A stretch of DNA of 64,000 nucleotides. Source: Burkholderiaceae bacterium (GTDB taxonomy: Bacteria > Pseudomonadota > Gammaproteobacteria > Burkholderiales > Burkholderiaceae_C). Of this stretch, positions 33,575 to 39,828 are shown piece after piece (position 1 is the first letter of the stretch; each line of letters opens with the position of its first letter). The DNA lies in contig JAHCKM010000002.1 in the NCBI GenBank assembly GCA_026125795.1, positions 1,364,001-1,428,000 of the forward strand, written 5' to 3'. The translations under genes were made by a program, and so were the position numbers. The notes under the pieces were generated by a model. It did no database searches. It was not told the origin of the DNA and saw only the letters and a program-made list of their open reading frames with translations.

Positions 33575-34399
33575 TTAGGAGCGCAACAATTCGTTGATGC
33601 TGGTCTTGGCGCGGGTCGCGGCAGTGACGCGCTTCACGATCACGGCGCAATAGAGGCTGTGGCTGCCGTCGATCGCAGGCAAGGAGCCGCTCACCACCAC
33701 GGAGCCGGCAGGCACGCGGCCGTAGTGAATTTCTCCCGTCATGCGGTCATAGATCTTGGTGCTCTGGCCGATGAACACGCCCATGCTGATCACCGAGTTC
33801 TCTTCGACGATCACGCCTTCGACCACTTCGGATCGTGCACCGATGAAGCAGTTGTCTTCGATGATGGTGGGGTTGGCCTGCAGCGGCTCTAGCACGCCGC
33901 CGATGCCCACGCCGCCCGACAGGTGCACGTTCTTGCCGATCTGCGCGCACGAGCCCACGGTGGCCCAGGTGTCGACCATGGTGCCTTCATCGACGTAGGC
34001 GCCGATGTTCACGTACGACGGCATCAGGACCACGTTCTTCCCGATGTAGCTGCCGCGCCGCGCCACCGCCGGCGGCACCACGCGCACGCCGGTGGCGCGC
34101 ATCTGTGCTTCGTCGAGGTGGGCGAACTTGGTGCCCACCTTGTCGAAGAAGCCGAGGTCGCCGGCATGCATCGGCCGGTTGTCGTTGAGGCGGAAGCTCA
34201 ACAGCACCGCCTTCTTGATCCACTGGTTAACGGTCCACTCGCCGACGCCCTTGCGATCGGCCACACGAACTCGCCCGGCGTTCAGGTCGGCGATGGTCTG
34301 CTCGACGGCTTCTCGGATCTCCGGGCCCGCGTTGGTGGGACTGAGCGCGTTGCGGCCCTCCCACGCGAGATCGATGATCGATTCGATGTCTTGGCTCAT
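33575..34399 (-). CDS. dapD: Tetrahydrodipicolinate N-succinyltransferase DapD
   Basis: 274 residues. An N-terminal helical domain is followed by a left-handed beta-helix with hexapeptide repeats ([54 protein letters not shown]). It transfers succinyl from succinyl-CoA to tetrahydrodipicolinate, the first step of the succinylase branch to diaminopimelate. The start MSQDIES at 34399 overlaps the dapC stop by 4 bp, so translation is coupled. Confidence 0.96.
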
Positions 34400-35595
34400 G
34401 TCAGTGCCTTGGTGTAGGAGACGATGCGTTCGGCGGCTTCGAGGCACTCGGCAGCTTCAGCGACCAGCGCCATCCGGATGCGGCCTCGCCCGGGGTTGCT
34501 GCCGTGCGCTTCGCGCGCGAGCAGGCTGCCTGGCAACACGGTCACATTGTATTGAGCCAGCAGGCCACGTGCGAAGGCGATGTCGTCATGGTTCGGCACG
34601 GCTGCCCACAGATAGAAAGCCGCGTCGGGCAACTGCACACCGAGCACGTCCTGCAGCAGCGGCATCACGCGCGCAAACTTCTCGCGGTACAGCGTGCGGT
34701 TGGCCAGCACGTGCGCTTCGTCGCCCCAGGCGGCCGTGCTGGCGGCCTGCACCACGGGGCTCATCGCACTGCCGTGGTAGGTGCGGTACAGCAAGAACGG
34801 CTTGATGATGCGCGCGTCGCCTGCGACGAAGCCCGATCGCATGCCCGGCACGTTGGAGCGCTTGGACAGCGACGTCAGCATGATCAGGTTGCGATAGTCG
34901 TCGCGGCCCAGTGCATGCGCCGCCTGCAGGCCGCCGAGCGGCGGCCCGCTTTCGTCGCGGAAGTAGATCTCCGAATAACACTCGTCGCTGGCGATCACGA
35001 AGCCGTGCCGGTCGGACAGCTCAAACAGCGTGCGCCACTCGGCCAGCGGCATCACGGCGCCGGTGGGGTTGCCCGGCGAGCACACGTAGAGCAGCTGGGT
35101 GCGCGCCCAGGTGTTGTCGTCGATCTGCGACCAATCGGGCGCGAAGTTGCGACCCGGGTCGCTGTTGGCAAACGCGGTGCGCGCGCCGGCCAGAAGCGCC
35201 GCGCCCTCGTAGATCTGGTAGAAGGGATTTGGGCACACCACGGTGGCGCCATCGCGCGTGGGGTCGATCACCACCTGCGCCAGCGCAAACAGCGCCTCGC
35301 GCGAGCCGTTGACCGGCAGCAGTTGCGTCGCAGGGTCCACGCGCACGCCGTAGCGCCTGCCCAGCCACGCAGCACAGGCTTCGCGCAGGCGAGGCTCGCC
35401 GATGGTGGGTGGGTAGATCGACAGGCCCTTGAGCGAGCCGGTCAACGCGTCTTCGATCAGCTGCGGCGTCGGATGGCGCGGCTCGCCCAGCCCCAGGCTG
35501 ATCGGCCGCAGGTCACCCCGGTGCTGCACACCCTGCGTCAGCTCGCGCCAGCGCTCGAACGGGTACGGATGCAGGCGCGACAGCAGCGGGTTCAT
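34396..35595 (-). CDS. dapC: Succinyldiaminopimelate transaminase DapC
   Basis: 399 residues, a fold-type I PLP aminotransferase. The PLP lysine is in [17 protein letters not shown], and [16 protein letters not shown] and DECYSEIYF mark the cofactor site. It converts N-succinyl-2-amino-6-ketopimelate to N-succinyl-LL-diaminopimelate using glutamate. The 4-bp overlap with dapD and the order dapC-dapD-(pilU)-dapE fit the pathway. The MTA-phosphorylase-type gene of the arsenosugar-like cassette lies only 36 bp upstream on the same strand, so both may share a transcript. Confidence 0.93.
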
Positions 35596-35631: not shown

Positions 35632-36477
35632 TCAACGCTGCAGCACGCTCAGCCAGTCGCGCTGCTGCGGAGTCAGAGCCGATTCCGGCGTCATCAGCGC
35701 GCTGCGCAGCGCGCCGCGGATCTCGGGTTCCTCGGGCGGCAGTGGGGTGGCGAGCAGCGCGTCTAGCAGTTGCCGCGCCTTGGCGAGACTCTTGCCGTAC
35801 AGCTCGAAGATCGCGCTCACGCTCACGTGCTTGGCGGGGTCGTCCATCCAGCAGTCGTAGTCGGTCACGATGCCGACCGTCGCGTAACAGATTTGCGCCT
35901 CGCGTGCCAGAAACGCCTCGGGAATGTTGGTCATCCCCACCAGGTGGCAGCCGGCGCTGCGCATGAAGTGGCTCTCGGCCCGTGTACCCAGGCGCGGGCC
36001 TTCGACGCAGGCGTAGGTCAGGCCGGTGTGCAGCGTCATCTGAAGTTGCTTGGCCTGATCGGCCACCCAGCTCACCAGGTTGCCGCTCACCGGCATCGCG
36101 CTGGAGATGTGGGCCGCCACGCCGCCGCCGAAGAACGTGCGCTCGCGCGCACCGCGGGTCCAGTCGAAATACTGCGACGGCATCGCCAACTCGCCCGGCG
36201 CCACGTCCTCGGCCAGGCTGCCCACCGCCGAGAAGCCCAGGATCTGCGTCGCGCCGCAAGCCTTCAGCGCGAACACGTTGGCGCGGTAGTTCACCTCGTG
36301 CGGCAGCAGCCGGTGCCCCGCGCCGTGCCTGGCCAGGAACAGGATCTCGCGGTCGTGCAGGTGGCCTTGCAGCACCGGGCCCGAAGCACGGCCGAACGGC
36401 GTGTCGGCGGTGTGTTCCTTGGTGATCTGCAGGCCGGCCAGGTCGTACAGGCCGGTTCCTCCGATGATGGCGAGCAT
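35632..36477 (-). CDS. MTA/MTI-phosphorylase-family nucleoside phosphorylase
   Basis: 281 residues of the trimeric purine nucleoside phosphorylase family. It opens MLAIIGGTGLYDLAG, phosphate-binding residues are in FLARHGAGHRLLPHEVNYRAN, and the base-recognition loop is in GIVTDYDCWMD, whose two Asp residues fit a 6-aminopurine (adenine). Normal substrate is 5'-methylthioadenosine, split by phosphate into adenine and methylthioribose-1-phosphate. It starts 2 bp after the metallophosphoesterase stop, at the end of a cassette with arsS. A likely specialised role is to remove adenine from 5'-deoxy-5'-dimethylarsinoyl-adenosine (inference). Ordinary MTA salvage is the alternative. Confidence 0.82.
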   Translation of the reverse strand: MLAIIGGTGLYDLAGLQITKEHTADTPFGRASGPVLQGHLHDREILFLARHGAGHRLLPHEVNYRANVFALKACGATQILGFSAVGSLAEDVAPGELAMPSQYFDWTRGARERTFFGGGVAAHISSAMPVSGNLVSWVADQAKQLQMTLHTGLTYACVEGPRLGTRAESHFMRSAGCHLVGMTNIPEAFLAREAQICYATVGIVTDYDCWMDDPAKHVSVSAIFELYGKSLAKARQLLDALLATPLPPEEPEIRGALRSALMTPESALTPQQRDWLSVLQR

Positions 36478-36479
36478 GG

Positions 36480-37445
36480 TCACATTTCCGGGGGCGAAGG
36501 GTTCAGGCGCAGCGCGTCGGCGGGTCGATAGTCGGGGCCGTCGGCGATGCGCGCCGCATAGGACAGGTGCGCGTCGCTGCCGGCTGGCCATTGCGCGAGG
36601 AAACTGCGCTGCCACGCCGGGTGATCGTAGTCGATCGCAACGGCGTCGACGTGCAGCCCGTACCGCTGTACGCCGAAGCGCCGCTGCGGTCCATTGAACG
36701 GGTGCGTCGCGATGCGCGTGACCAGGCCCTCGCGCGCGCCGCTGAAGTTGGGCATGCCGGCCGCGCCGTTGTTCAGCAGCAGGCCGTCGCCCAGCGCTGC
36801 AAACACCGGCAGGCAGGTATGGCTGCTGGCGAACACGTCGACCTGTGCCTGCTCGAACCAGCGCGCCGCCGTGTCGCGCGCGCCCGCGTCGCGCAGCGCC
36901 TCCTGCGCGAAGCCCCAGCCCGAGAGCGACTGCGCGTCGCCGTGCACGATGGCCACGCGGCACCCTGCCACGTCGATGCGGCGCCACATCGGCAGCGCAC
37001 GCAGGGCGTCGCATGCCCCGGGCGTGGCGAGCGCCGCGCGGCGCAGCCGCGCGAGGATGCGGTTCGAGCGCTCGACCACGCCCTCATCCACCCAATCGGG
37101 GTAGGCGCAACCGCAGTCGGCGTCGGCGCCGTCGGATGCATCGGCCGCGGCCAGCTCGGTCTCGACGTTGCCGCGCGTGGCTTCGAACGCGAGAACGCCA
37201 CGCTGGATCTGCGCGAATGCGTCGGCATCGATGTCGAACCAGTGGAAGTCGCCGTTGAACACCAGGCGCTTGTCGCCGCGTTCGCGTTCGAACAGCTCGA
37301 TCAGGCGTTGCAGCGCCTGCACGTTGCCATACAGGCCGCCTGCCACATAGAGCACCTCGCAACGCTCGCTCGCCGAGACGGCAAGGTCGGCGGGGCGGTA
37401 GCGGTAGTGCAGCGGGCAGCTTCGGCCCGGCTCGTGGGTGCTCAT
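36480..37445 (-). CDS. Metallophosphoesterase-like protein
   Basis: 321 residues with the calcineurin-like metal motifs: an initial VAGGLYGNVQAL, GDFHWFD (GDxxxxxD/GNH-type), then AIVHGDAQSLSG and SSHTCLPVF. A short Cys-rich stretch (DADCGCAY) near residue 110 and a wide acidic insert are unusual. It would hydrolyse a phosphate ester in the cytosol. It sits between two glycosyltransferases and the nucleoside phosphorylase, so the phosphate on an arsenosugar intermediate (for example a dimethylarsinoyl-ribose phosphate) is a sensible substrate, but this is inference. ATG 37445 is the first start with family-like N-terminus. Confidence 0.75.
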   Translation of the reverse strand: MSTHEPGRSCPLHYRYRPADLAVSASERCEVLYVAGGLYGNVQALQRLIELFERERGDKRLVFNGDFHWFDIDADAFAQIQRGVLAFEATRGNVETELAAADASDGADADCGCAYPDWVDEGVVERSNRILARLRRAALATPGACDALRALPMWRRIDVAGCRVAIVHGDAQSLSGWGFAQEALRDAGARDTAARWFEQAQVDVFASSHTCLPVFAALGDGLLLNNGAAGMPNFSGAREGLVTRIATHPFNGPQRRFGVQRYGLHVDAVAIDYDHPAWQRSFLAQWPAGSDAHLSYAARIADGPDYRPADALRLNPSPPEM

Positions 37446-37527
37446 CGCGCCGTCGCGGCCCGCCCGCGTGATGCGCCCGCCGTCGCGCACGCGAAGGCGC
37501 CCCAAGCCGGGATCAGGCGACGCGTCC

Positions 37528-38166
37528 TCATGTGGGCTGCATCGTGAAGTCAATGCCGTGCGTTGCGAGGTGCACGAGGTCGGCCGGTTCGTCCACGTCG
37601 TGCAGCACTGGCAGCTCGGCGTGGCGCAGATTCGATTGCGCGAGACGCGCGCGTGTGTGCGCCAGCACCTGGTCATGGCTCCAGCGCAGGCCGAGAAACA
37701 ACCGGGATTGCGGTTGCTTGAGCCCCACCAGTACGTAGCCGCCGTCGGCCGCCGGGCCAAAGACGGCGTCATGCCCGTGCAACGCCTGCGCGGCAGCGCG
37801 CAGGTAGGGCGCGTCGAGCCCGGGTGCGTCCGTGCCGATCAGCAGTGCACTCGGCTGCACGCGCAGCACGCGCTCGAAGGCACGTGCCATGCGCTCGCCG
37901 AGGTCGCCGTCTCCTTGGTCGGTGAGCCGCACGCCATGTCGAGCCACCGCGTCGGCGAACGCGCGGTGCGAACGGTCCGGCGTGACGCACAGCTCCACCG
38001 CGCCGAGCTGAGCTGCAACCGCATGCGCCAGTGTCGCGTTCATCAGGCGTTCGGCCAGTTCGGCGGCGCCGCGCGGGCCGAGCGCCGGGATGAGCCGCGT
38101 CTTGGCAAAGCCTGCCACCGGTGCCTTGGCGAAAACGATGACCGTTGTGCGCGCGGCCTCGCTCAT
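37528..38166 (-). CDS. TIGR04282-type arsenosugar-associated glycosyltransferase
   Basis: 212 residues of a GT-A / nucleotidyltransferase-like fold. Marks are the N-terminal VIVFAKAPVAGFAKTRL, IGTDAPGLDAPYL (metal/nucleotide site) and GPAADGGYVLVGL. Members of this family are annotated as arsenosugar-biosynthesis glycosyltransferases because they co-occur with arsS. Its ATG overlaps the stop of the next glycosyltransferase gene by 4 bp. The donor and acceptor are unknown. It is the third gene of the arsS cassette; the 82 bp before the metallophosphoesterase contain a small repeat fragment. Confidence 0.85.
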   Translation of the reverse strand: MSEAARTTVIVFAKAPVAGFAKTRLIPALGPRGAAELAERLMNATLAHAVAAQLGAVELCVTPDRSHRAFADAVARHGVRLTDQGDGDLGERMARAFERVLRVQPSALLIGTDAPGLDAPYLRAAAQALHGHDAVFGPAADGGYVLVGLKQPQSRLFLGLRWSHDQVLAHTRARLAQSNLRHAELPVLHDVDEPADLVHLATHGIDFTMQPT

Positions 38167-38843
38167 CGATACATCCTGGCCAGCCGCTCCGCCGGCAGCC
38201 CCATCCAGTACAACGCGCGCAGCAGCCACATCAGCCCGATGGTGCGCAGCACGCCGTGCTGCTCCCAGCGCCGGCCCGACGTGACGACGCGCTGGTGCAG
38301 GCAGGCCGGGCGCGACAGCCTGCGCAGGCGCTTGCTCAGCTCGATGTCTTCCATCAGCGGCTGCTCGGGAAAGCCGCCGATGCGCTGGAACATGTCTCGG
38401 CGCACGAAGATCGCCTGGTCGCCGGTGGCGATGCGGCTCCAGCGCGAGCGCAGGTTCATCAGCGAAGCCACCACCTTGAGCAGCGGCGGCGAACCGTCGA
38501 TCTGCACGTCGAAGCGGCCCCACGACACCTGCGCGTCGGCCAGCGCCGTCTCGAGCGCGGCAAGCGCGTCCGGCGGCAGCTGCGTGTCGGCGTGCAGGAA
38601 CAGCAGCACGTCCGCCGTGGCTGCCGATGCGCCGGCGTTCATCTGTTTGGCTCGCCCGCGCGGACTCACCAGCACACGATCGGCCCACGGCCTGGCGAGC
38701 ACCACGGTGCCGTCGGTGCTGCCGCCGTCTGCCACGATCAGCTCGGCACCCTGCTTGCGGAGTGCGCGCAATCCCTGCAGGCAGGACACGATGCGCTGCG
38801 CCTCGTTGAGCGTCGGCACGACAATGCTCAGGCGTGCCGCCAT
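38163..38843 (-). CDS. TIGR04283-type arsenosugar-associated glycosyltransferase (GT2)
   Basis: 226 residues, a family 2 GT-A glycosyltransferase. It opens LSIVVPTLNEAQRI; the nucleotide-sugar site is in VADGGSTDGTV, the DxD-like metal motif in LLFLHADTQL, and the acceptor region in GDQAIFVRRDMF. A hydrophobic C-terminal segment (GLMWLLRALYWMGL) could attach it to the membrane. The family co-occurs with ArsS. It starts 16 bp after the arsS stop and overlaps the next glycosyltransferase gene by 4 bp. It may add the sugar or aglycone that turns dimethylarsinoyl-riboside into an arsenosugar (inference). Confidence 0.86.
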   Translation of the reverse strand: MAARLSIVVPTLNEAQRIVSCLQGLRALRKQGAELIVADGGSTDGTVVLARPWADRVLVSPRGRAKQMNAGASAATADVLLFLHADTQLPPDALAALETALADAQVSWGRFDVQIDGSPPLLKVVASLMNLRSRWSRIATGDQAIFVRRDMFQRIGGFPEQPLMEDIELSKRLRRLSRPACLHQRVVTSGRRWEQHGVLRTIGLMWLLRALYWMGLPAERLARMYR

Positions 38844-38859
38844 CGGAGATCCCGAACGA

Positions 38860-39828
38860 TCAAGCCGCCAACAGTTGGCCGCCGCAGCTGCTGCCGTTGC
38901 CGGCGGTGCAGCCGTAGCAGTGGTCGGCCACCCGCACCGGACCGCCGTTGACCGCTTGCTGCAGCAGGTCGCGCAAGTGCGCCCGAGGCTTGCCGCCCAA
39001 GCGCATCGGCAGGCCGAGCATCTGGTTGAAGTCGCAGTCGTACAGCGCACCGGTCCAGTCGACGCTGACGGTGTGGGTGCACATCACCGTGTCGAGGTTC
39101 TCGGCACGGTGGTTGTCCTTCAGCAGCTTCATGTAGGGCTGGAACTGCCCTTTGCTGATCAGCGTGCTGCCGAAGCGCTGGATCGGCATGTTGGCCAGCG
39201 CAAAGAGCTGGTTGAAGCGGATGCCGAACTGCCGGCCCAGCTCGCGTTCGTAGTCGGCCCGCAGCGCCTGCTGATCGGGCGGCAGCACCGGGCCTTGCGG
39301 GTTGTAGACGAGGTTCAGCGTCAGTCCGCTTCCCGGCTGGCCGTAGCCGAGCGCGTTGAGCTTCTGGAGCGCCAGGATGCTCTTGTCGAACACGCCGGCG
39401 CCGCGCTGGCGGTCGACCCGTTCGAGCGAATAACACGGCAGCGACGCGACGATGTCGACGCGCTCGGAGGCAAGGAACTCGGCCAGGTCCTGCTGCCCCG
39501 GCTCGAACAGGATCGTCAGGTTGCAGCGGTCGATCACCTGCACGCCCAGCGCACGCGCGCCGCGCGCGAGCCGACGAAAGTGCGGGTGCAGTTCCGGGGC
39601 ACCCCCGGTGATGTCGAGCGTGGCCACCCGGCGCGCCTGCAGCACCTGGAGCACGAGATCGATCATGTCTTCGGCCATCGCCTCGGTGCGATTGGGCCCG
39701 GCGTTGACGTGGCAATGCAGGCAGCTCTGGTTGCAGCGGTAGCCGACGTTGACCTGCAGCACCTGGAGGTCACGACGGCGCAGCGCCGGGAAATCGGTGT
39801 GCGCGAGCAGGGGCAAGGTGGCGTGCAT
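38860..39828 (-). CDS. arsS: Arsenosugar biosynthesis radical SAM protein ArsS
   Basis: 322 residues. The radical-SAM 4Fe-4S motif CNQSCLHCH is at residues 32-40 (Cys32, 36 and 39), then TGGAPELHPHFR. The C-terminus is the Cys-rich domain of this family: a pair in CTHTVSVDWTGALYDC and Cys304, 307 and 315 in HCYGCTAGNGSSCGG. ArsS joins a 5'-deoxyadenosyl radical to dimethylated arsenic to give 5'-deoxy-5'-dimethylarsinoyl-adenosine, the arsenosugar precursor. Some relatives are selenoproteins; here all sites are Cys with no in-frame stop. It is first in the cassette. No arsM methyltransferase is visible nearby. No clear promoter is seen in the 122 bp upstream. Confidence 0.92.
   Translation of the reverse strand: MHATLPLLAHTDFPALRRRDLQVLQVNVGYRCNQSCLHCHVNAGPNRTEAMAEDMIDLVLQVLQARRVATLDITGGAPELHPHFRRLARGARALGVQVIDRCNLTILFEPGQQDLAEFLASERVDIVASLPCYSLERVDRQRGAGVFDKSILALQKLNALGYGQPGSGLTLNLVYNPQGPVLPPDQQALRADYERELGRQFGIRFNQLFALANMPIQRFGSTLISKGQFQPYMKLLKDNHRAENLDTVMCTHTVSVDWTGALYDCDFNQMLGLPMRLGGKPRAHLRDLLQQAVNGGPVRVADHCYGCTAGNGSSCGGQLLAA

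Follow-up and report, generated by a model that had tools for sequence, protein, structure and literature searches.

A recurring variant form of the arsenosugar genes in a Burkholderiaceae genome, with candidate proteins for the later steps of the pathway

The window analysed here (64,000 nucleotides of contig JAHCKM010000002.1, assembly GCA_026125795.1, from a Burkholderiaceae bacterium) contains a run of five genes on the minus strand at positions 35632–39828, headed by arsS, the gene of a radical S-adenosylmethionine enzyme. The cassette is real, and it represents a variant of the arsenosugar gene set that recurs in other genomes. There is about an even chance that it encodes a variant bacterial arsenosugar (arsenic-riboside) pathway, in which we infer all the chemistry after ArsS. 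The observed basis of this reading consists of the identity of the genes, their recurrence, the signature of a phosphorylase subclade, the predicted folds and the replaced metal ligands of a phosphoesterase-like protein. The genome comprises 6.57 Mb in six contigs and is 98.9% complete. The intergenic gaps in the cassette are 16, −4, 82 and 2 bases, with a further 36 bases to dapC; the first-pass annotation of this DNA had given the same five minus-strand genes, span and gaps, and all were confirmed in the reading frames. A foreign origin of the cassette was considered, and its G+C content (0.697 against 0.683 for the window) gives no sign of it.

Two sets of loci describe the recurrence of the genes. 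In the sample of the order (399 genomes) arsS exceeds the cut-off of the TIGR04167 model in 119 genomes, and 121 of the 124 copies above the cut-off, that of the window included, form the set of arsS loci (the copies in G212, G313 and G357 were left out). Their flanks extend for about 10 kb and many contigs stop within the flank, so that any absence near arsS is uncertain. The other set comes from a profile search of a collection of 84,980 species with the metallophosphoesterase-like protein of the cassette (MPE); it comprises the best 80 of at least 511 relatives and is biased to the window-like kind. Among the 121 arsS loci, a GT2-type glycosyltransferase gene was found in 83, a TIGR04282 gene in 75 (72 under a rule of one family per reading frame, 75 in the recount without it), MPE in 42 and a gene of the methylthioadenosine phosphorylase (MTAP) type in 8. 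MPE is always encoded on the strand of arsS, and MTAP in two of its eight cases. The best 80 MPE loci contain TIGR04282 in 49 cases, GT2 in 41 and MTAP in 33; arsS is present in 53 of them if E 1e-8 is required and in 51 if 150 bits are. The same compact gene order as in the window is present in Limnohabitans sp. Rim28 (L220), L230 and L232, as well as in L253, where it is cut by the contig end. Named records with close relatives of MPE belong to Rhizobacter, Rubrivivax, Hydrogenophaga, Limnohabitans and similar genera. On the strength of such co-recurrence across many genomes, chance clustering of the cassette genes was rejected. The first-pass annotation had made its proposal depend on finding the genes of the phosphorylase, of both transferase-type proteins and of the phosphoesterase-like protein together with arsS elsewhere; all four show this association, and the proposal stands in this respect. 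Two of the loci, L232 and L270, are metagenome-assembled, and their labels (Akkermansia muciniphila and Bordetella parapertussis) appear doubtful in view of the close match to freshwater-type Burkholderiales clusters.

MPE (36480–37445, minus strand, 321 amino acids) has no match in NCBIfam and scores 19.6 bits against the Pfam family Metallophos_2, below the cut-off of 27; this family is matched by 23 of 61 MPE members at E 0.01 or better. The predicted fold is that of a calcineurin-like metallophosphoesterase. The MPE profile, searched against PDB sequences, gave no match at E 1, and the VIA-align list was a second look at the Foldseek matches, so structures outside it may still be alike. 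The alignments comprised 20 of 42 MPE copies (A1) and the window sequence with 60 of the 80 loci (A2, L245 with its stop codon being left out). Within the motifs D-x-H, GD, GN, H and GHxH, which we take to provide the ligands of both metal sites, D66, N93, H168 and H209 are invariant in the 61 aligned sequences, and so are four cysteines, at positions 10, 111, 113 and 211. The three usual ligands of metal site 1 are replaced by G37, Y39 and C211. The structures nearest to MPE, those of SapH (3qfm and 3qfn, an Ap4A hydrolase/phosphodiesterase), 1nnw and 2gju, differ from it in this respect: MPE has G-x-Y in place of D-x-H and Cys in place of the last His of GHxH, and the four invariant cysteines are its own feature. 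Because of the replaced ligands and the invariant cysteines, MPE, which appears from its sequence to keep one metal site and to have lost the other, is presumably no ordinary phosphatase. Thus the fold behind the first-pass name "phosphatase" holds good and the usual metal centre does not.

In the order sample MPE, as a partner family, is found almost exclusively in genomes that have arsS. It was found in 58 of the 399 genomes, 57 of which carry arsS (Fisher 3e-34, descent ignored); a further 62 genomes carry arsS without a match to MPE, and the other 279 are without both. The sole MPE genome without arsS, G242, is split into about 410 contigs, and its 6 kb MPE contig holds phnD, phnE and phnC. 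MPE is patchy in the genus of the window (2 of 6 genomes). In a wider sample of the phylum it was detected in 7 of 398 genomes, five of them outside the order; within the 20 kb stretches fetched for these five, arsS is present in one and a fusion of TVP38-type and FAD domains (described below) in four, including that one.

The last gene of the cassette (35632–36477, minus strand) encodes a phosphorylase of 281 amino acids with the signature GPRLGT. It is named MTAP-type here since its score with TIGR01694, 273.3 bits, narrowly misses the cut-off of 274.85; within the window genome it is the only strong match, the runner-up reaching 106 bits. In 32 of the best 80 MPE loci, as in the window, MTAP comes after MPE in the same orientation; in 26 of these 33 pairs, that of the window included, it does so directly, with a spacing of 1–5 bases measured up to where the match begins. 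The alignment of 71 MTAP rows shows Leu-Gly as the base-pocket pair in 36, from 34 distinct loci, and Phe-Ser in 35; we take this stretch to contact the adenine. The adenine-side motif TDYDxW is kept and reads TDYDCW in the window protein. All 34 Leu-Gly loci are at least 62% identical to the window MTAP and all contain MPE or arsS; this sample is biased, 32 of the 34 coming from the MPE search, and leaves aside the shorter MTAP kind of about 250 amino acids. The unbiased search of the 399 genomes yielded two close copies, that of the window and that of G298 (67% identical), both adjoining arsS, and the next copy is 47% identical. Judging from the alignment, the cassette phosphorylase belongs to a dedicated subclade with its own active-site signature, found beside MPE or arsS. 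The MTAP-type call of the first-pass annotation is correct as to the likeness to TIGR01694, with a link to arsS and MPE, and has to be qualified by the score just under the cut-off and by Leu-Gly in place of Phe-Ser. The Leu-Gly copy of G298 (L308, L055) is located directly upstream of arsS in a cluster with ArsM and without MPE, possibly a mixed form.

Two transferase-type genes follow arsS. The GT2-type gene (38163–38843, minus strand, 226 amino acids) scores 292.1 bits with TIGR04283 (cut-off 182) and matches Pfam Glycos_transf_2; the next gene (37528–38166, minus strand, 212 amino acids) scores 206.8 bits with TIGR04282 (cut-off 134). Both scores agree with the earlier description as two glycosyltransferases, but the TIGR04282 protein is CofC-like by fold. 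Its predicted structure is nearest to CofC-type and other nucleotidyltransferases, and glycosyltransferases account for 1 of 50 entries in one list of fold matches and for 6 of 50 rows, at rank 13 or beyond, in the other. The database name "glycosyltransferase" appears to need correcting for this protein, the modelled fold being closest to CofC-type nucleotidyltransferases. The likeness to CofC, FbiD and 3-phosphoglycerate guanylyltransferase is one of fold; with the CofC model TIGR03552 the protein scores 55.6 bits, under the cut-off of 105. In the arsS loci the TIGR04282 gene is accompanied by GT2 in 75 of 75 cases, as expected of an enzyme making a nucleoside diphosphate (NDP) sugar and one using it.

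ArsS (38860–39828, minus strand, 322 amino acids) reaches 453.4 bits with TIGR04167 (cut-off 300). Cysteines 32, 36 and 39 form the CxxxCxxC cluster motif and cysteines 304, 307 and 315 lie in the tail, so that both the score and the residues bear out the first-pass assignment, which had relied on the radical-enzyme motif and the Cys-bearing tail. Adenosyl transfer to dimethylarsenic is established for the ArsS family in cyanobacteria, and the sequence of the window enzyme predicts that it, too, attaches a 5'-deoxyadenosyl group to this compound. The source of the methylated arsenic is less obvious. The first-pass annotation had proposed a complete route and a look for arsM elsewhere in the genome; searched with two models, the window genome yielded no ArsM (best match 73.7 against 263 bits and none at E 1e-20 with one, 34 against 400 bits with the other), and at 98.9% completeness a missed gene is unlikely but possible. 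Judged by the known ArsM models, the route is thus not self-contained there, and methylated arsenic is probably supplied from outside. At our own threshold of 150 bits (arsS genomes have no match between 109 and 160 bits, and the arsS-negative sample has one at 143) ArsM is present in 38 of the 119 arsS genomes: 12 of the 57 that also have MPE and 26 of the 62 that do not. Only 6 of 80 random arsS-negative genomes carry it (Fisher 4e-5, descent ignored). Since ArsM is commoner where arsS is present, arsenic is supported as the element. In the 121 arsS loci MPE occurs in 42, ArsM in 16 and both in none; a strict mutual exclusion of the two holds per locus and fails per genome.

A second ArsS of the same genome, 69% identical (223/322) to that of the cassette, is encoded on contig 1, where arsS is followed by phnD and phnE in overlapping frames and by a phnC-like gene (L039:8389-12631). 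On a quick tree it groups, at a support of 96, with two other ArsS and that of L058, whose cluster is of the arsS-phnDEC-MPE kind. This grouping, together with the phn genes, suggests that the genome may hold the consensus cluster split in two pieces. On the same tree 39 of 118 inner branches were drawn open, and the position of the window ArsS is without support. A separate ArsS clade for MPE loci was rejected: there are 19 label changes, though the labels are clustered (shuffled mean 34.9). Divergent from the second arsS are genes for an ECF sigma factor and for a negative regulator of the NrsF type, through which the arsS-phn unit might be under stress control. A deep branch of 12 ArsS (L064, L074, L131, L135, L137, L138, L142 and L149–L153) has no MPE or ArsM in the locus; in L064 a TIGR04169 peroxidase-like gene adjoins arsS.

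In larger clusters phnD, phnE and phnC lie between the TIGR04282 gene and MPE, and PhnD is present in 41 of the best 80 MPE loci and in 7 of the 121 arsS loci. The phn genes are also close to MPE in ten of another 16 loci, in which MPE is over 10 kb away from arsS or on a different contig and which include that of the arsS-less G242; the window cassette has none. A PhnDEC-type importer is a likely transporter partner of the wider system. Among PDB entries, the PhnD-like protein encoded next to the second arsS comes nearest to HtxB, a binder of hypophosphite (159.8 bits), and all 48 aligned PhnD-like proteins share the pocket pattern S-T-S, His, Trp, Asp. According to PMC5700983, S-T-S and His belong to phosphite/phosphonate binders and Trp and Asp are of the HtxB type; the pocket is mixed, with the S-T-S and His of PtxB and the Trp of HtxB, both proteins being binders of phosphorus oxyanions. 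This combination suggests a small oxyanion with three oxygens as the ligand. Methylarsonate would fit such a head, dimethylarsinate less well, and phosphite would be another candidate.

The proposed pathway can be laid out as follows, the catalytic steps after ArsS, their substrates and their order being those that we infer. ArsS would join the 5'-deoxyadenosyl group to dimethylarsenic, and the MTAP-type enzyme would then remove adenine by phosphorolysis, leaving an arsenic-bearing ribose 1-phosphate in the alpha form. From this and a nucleoside triphosphate the CofC-type enzyme (TIGR04282) would produce NDP-arsenoribose, whose arsenoribose the inverting GT2 enzyme would transfer to a three-carbon acceptor to give a beta-riboside, the configuration of natural arsenosugars. 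MPE might be involved in phosphate handling, for example by dephosphorylating a phosphorylated acceptor after the transfer, which is the ordinary option; alternatively, it might act on arsenic itself via its cysteines. MTAP inverts to give alpha ribose 1-phosphate, nucleotidyl transfer retains the configuration and GT2 enzymes invert to the beta-riboside. A known arsenosugar, which the title of PMC6656958 names, is a beta-ribofuranoside. The order of steps, leading to a beta-riboside, is consistent with this known form and is no proof.

Several observations weigh against such a pathway. No ArsM was found in the window genome, and 81 of the 119 arsS genomes are without an ArsM match of at least 150 bits. 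Only 8 of the 121 arsS loci have MTAP in the neighbourhood, and only 2 have it on the strand of arsS; the congener G403 has arsS and MPE and no MTAP match within the fetched stretches, so MTAP is not an obligate member. A recognised GT2 partner is missing for the TIGR04282 gene in 8 of 49 cases among the best 80 MPE loci (four of the contigs are shorter than 14 kb), and the metal-1 ligands of MPE are replaced in 61 of 61 aligned sequences. Finally, 22 of the 44 long-type MTAP copies, defined by at least 193 bits in the 399-genome search, sit in genomes without arsS. The last point would suit a salvage of by-products, in which MTAP, with MPE as a sugar-phosphate phosphatase, recycles 5'-deoxyadenosine and methylthioadenosine and takes no part in building the sugar. 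5'-Deoxyadenosine is released by radical S-adenosylmethionine enzymes and methylthioadenosine by polyamine synthesis, the cassette enzyme is the sole strong MTAP match of its genome, and MTAP-like genes are widespread (304 of the 399 genomes at E 1e-30). Salvage is nevertheless unlikely. The subclade with the altered motif was seen only with MPE or arsS (34 loci of the biased sample), both of its members in the unbiased search lie beside arsS, and the near-confinement of MPE to arsS genomes would be odd for general salvage. In the arsS genomes, 10 of 22 long-type MTAP copies are within 15 kb of arsS; a further alignment (A3) took in the window sequence and 37 of the 44.

A narrower form of the arsenosugar pathway, possible although doubtful, would have PhnDEC import methylated arsenic in place of ArsM, with PhnDEC, MPE and ArsS as the core. 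The frequency of phn genes beside MPE, the phn genes behind the second arsS of the window genome, the uniform pocket of the PhnD-like proteins and the lack of any locus with both MPE and ArsM speak for it. It has to be set against the window cassette without phn genes, the rarity of PhnD near arsS, the coexistence of MPE and ArsM in 12 of 57 genomes and a head that suits three-oxygen ligands, dimethylarsinate having two. Only tentatively could one go on to an ArsM-free pathway made of the PhnDEC importer, ArsS, the MTAP subclade, the CofC-type enzyme and MPE, the latter as a cysteine-rich one-metal enzyme or arsenic carrier particular to the pathway. The kinship of the PhnD-like protein with HtxB, together with the 45 of 57 arsS+MPE genomes where ArsM was not found, could also be taken to mean that the MPE/PhnDEC variant acts on reduced phosphorus and that an ArsS-like enzyme makes a carbon-phosphorus bond, resulting in a phosphonate riboside. 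We regard this as very improbable: ArsS of MPE loci is no separate clade and passes the cut-off of the arsenosugar model in all cases, and ArsM is commoner with arsS. Least credible of all is a functional coupling to lysine synthesis through selected read-through into dapC (34396–35595). The gap of 36 bases beyond the MTAP-type gene, on which the first-pass annotation had based a tie to the lysine genes, was confirmed, and no terminator pattern was found between the two genes (scans for promoter and terminator patterns were uninformative). The adjacency is not conserved, dapC (at least 200 bits) being absent from the best 80 MPE loci and present in 1 of 121 arsS loci, that of the window alone; nor was it matched in the stretches of G403 that hold arsS and MPE. 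The coupling was rejected accordingly.

The ArsM-ArsS arsenosugar pathway of Synechocystis was reportedly described by Xue in 2019. The window shares with it a member of the ArsS family above the cut-off, with the expected adenosyl transfer to dimethylarsenic; it differs in that no ArsM was found in the genome and in having genes of the MTAP subclade, of MPE and of the CofC type added to the same run. The work on Synechocystis is cited in PMC8552651. ArsM-bearing arsS clusters of the order (L112, L092) have arsS, GT2 and TIGR04282 in common with the window; in them ArsM and the TVP38-FAD fusion are present and MPE is missing, the reverse of the window. This fusion, in which a membrane domain of the VTT/TVP38 type is joined to a pyridine nucleotide-disulphide oxidoreductase, is located near arsS in 79 of the 121 loci (at least 500 bits) and was not found adjoining the window cassette. 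Also recurrent near arsS in these loci are DUF547 (49), DUF3047 (42) and a TIGR03169 oxidoreductase (34), for example in L042, L155 and L090.

To our knowledge, the enzymes that convert the first arsenic nucleoside into the finished arsenosugar have not been established. Among openly licensed papers none was found on the later arsenosugar enzymes, and the titles and beginnings of abstracts of such papers describe no arsS cluster with MTAP, MPE or phn genes. MPE and the special phosphorylase are recurring partners of arsS and thus candidates for these later steps, and their signatures set the two apart from their ordinary relatives. That the majority of the sampled arsS genomes, 81 of 119, are without an ArsM match at the 150-bit threshold raises the question of their source of methylated arsenic. 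The cassette is not a new kind of system; with four candidate proteins, arranged in a tractable order, it makes the later steps of arsenosugar synthesis directly testable.

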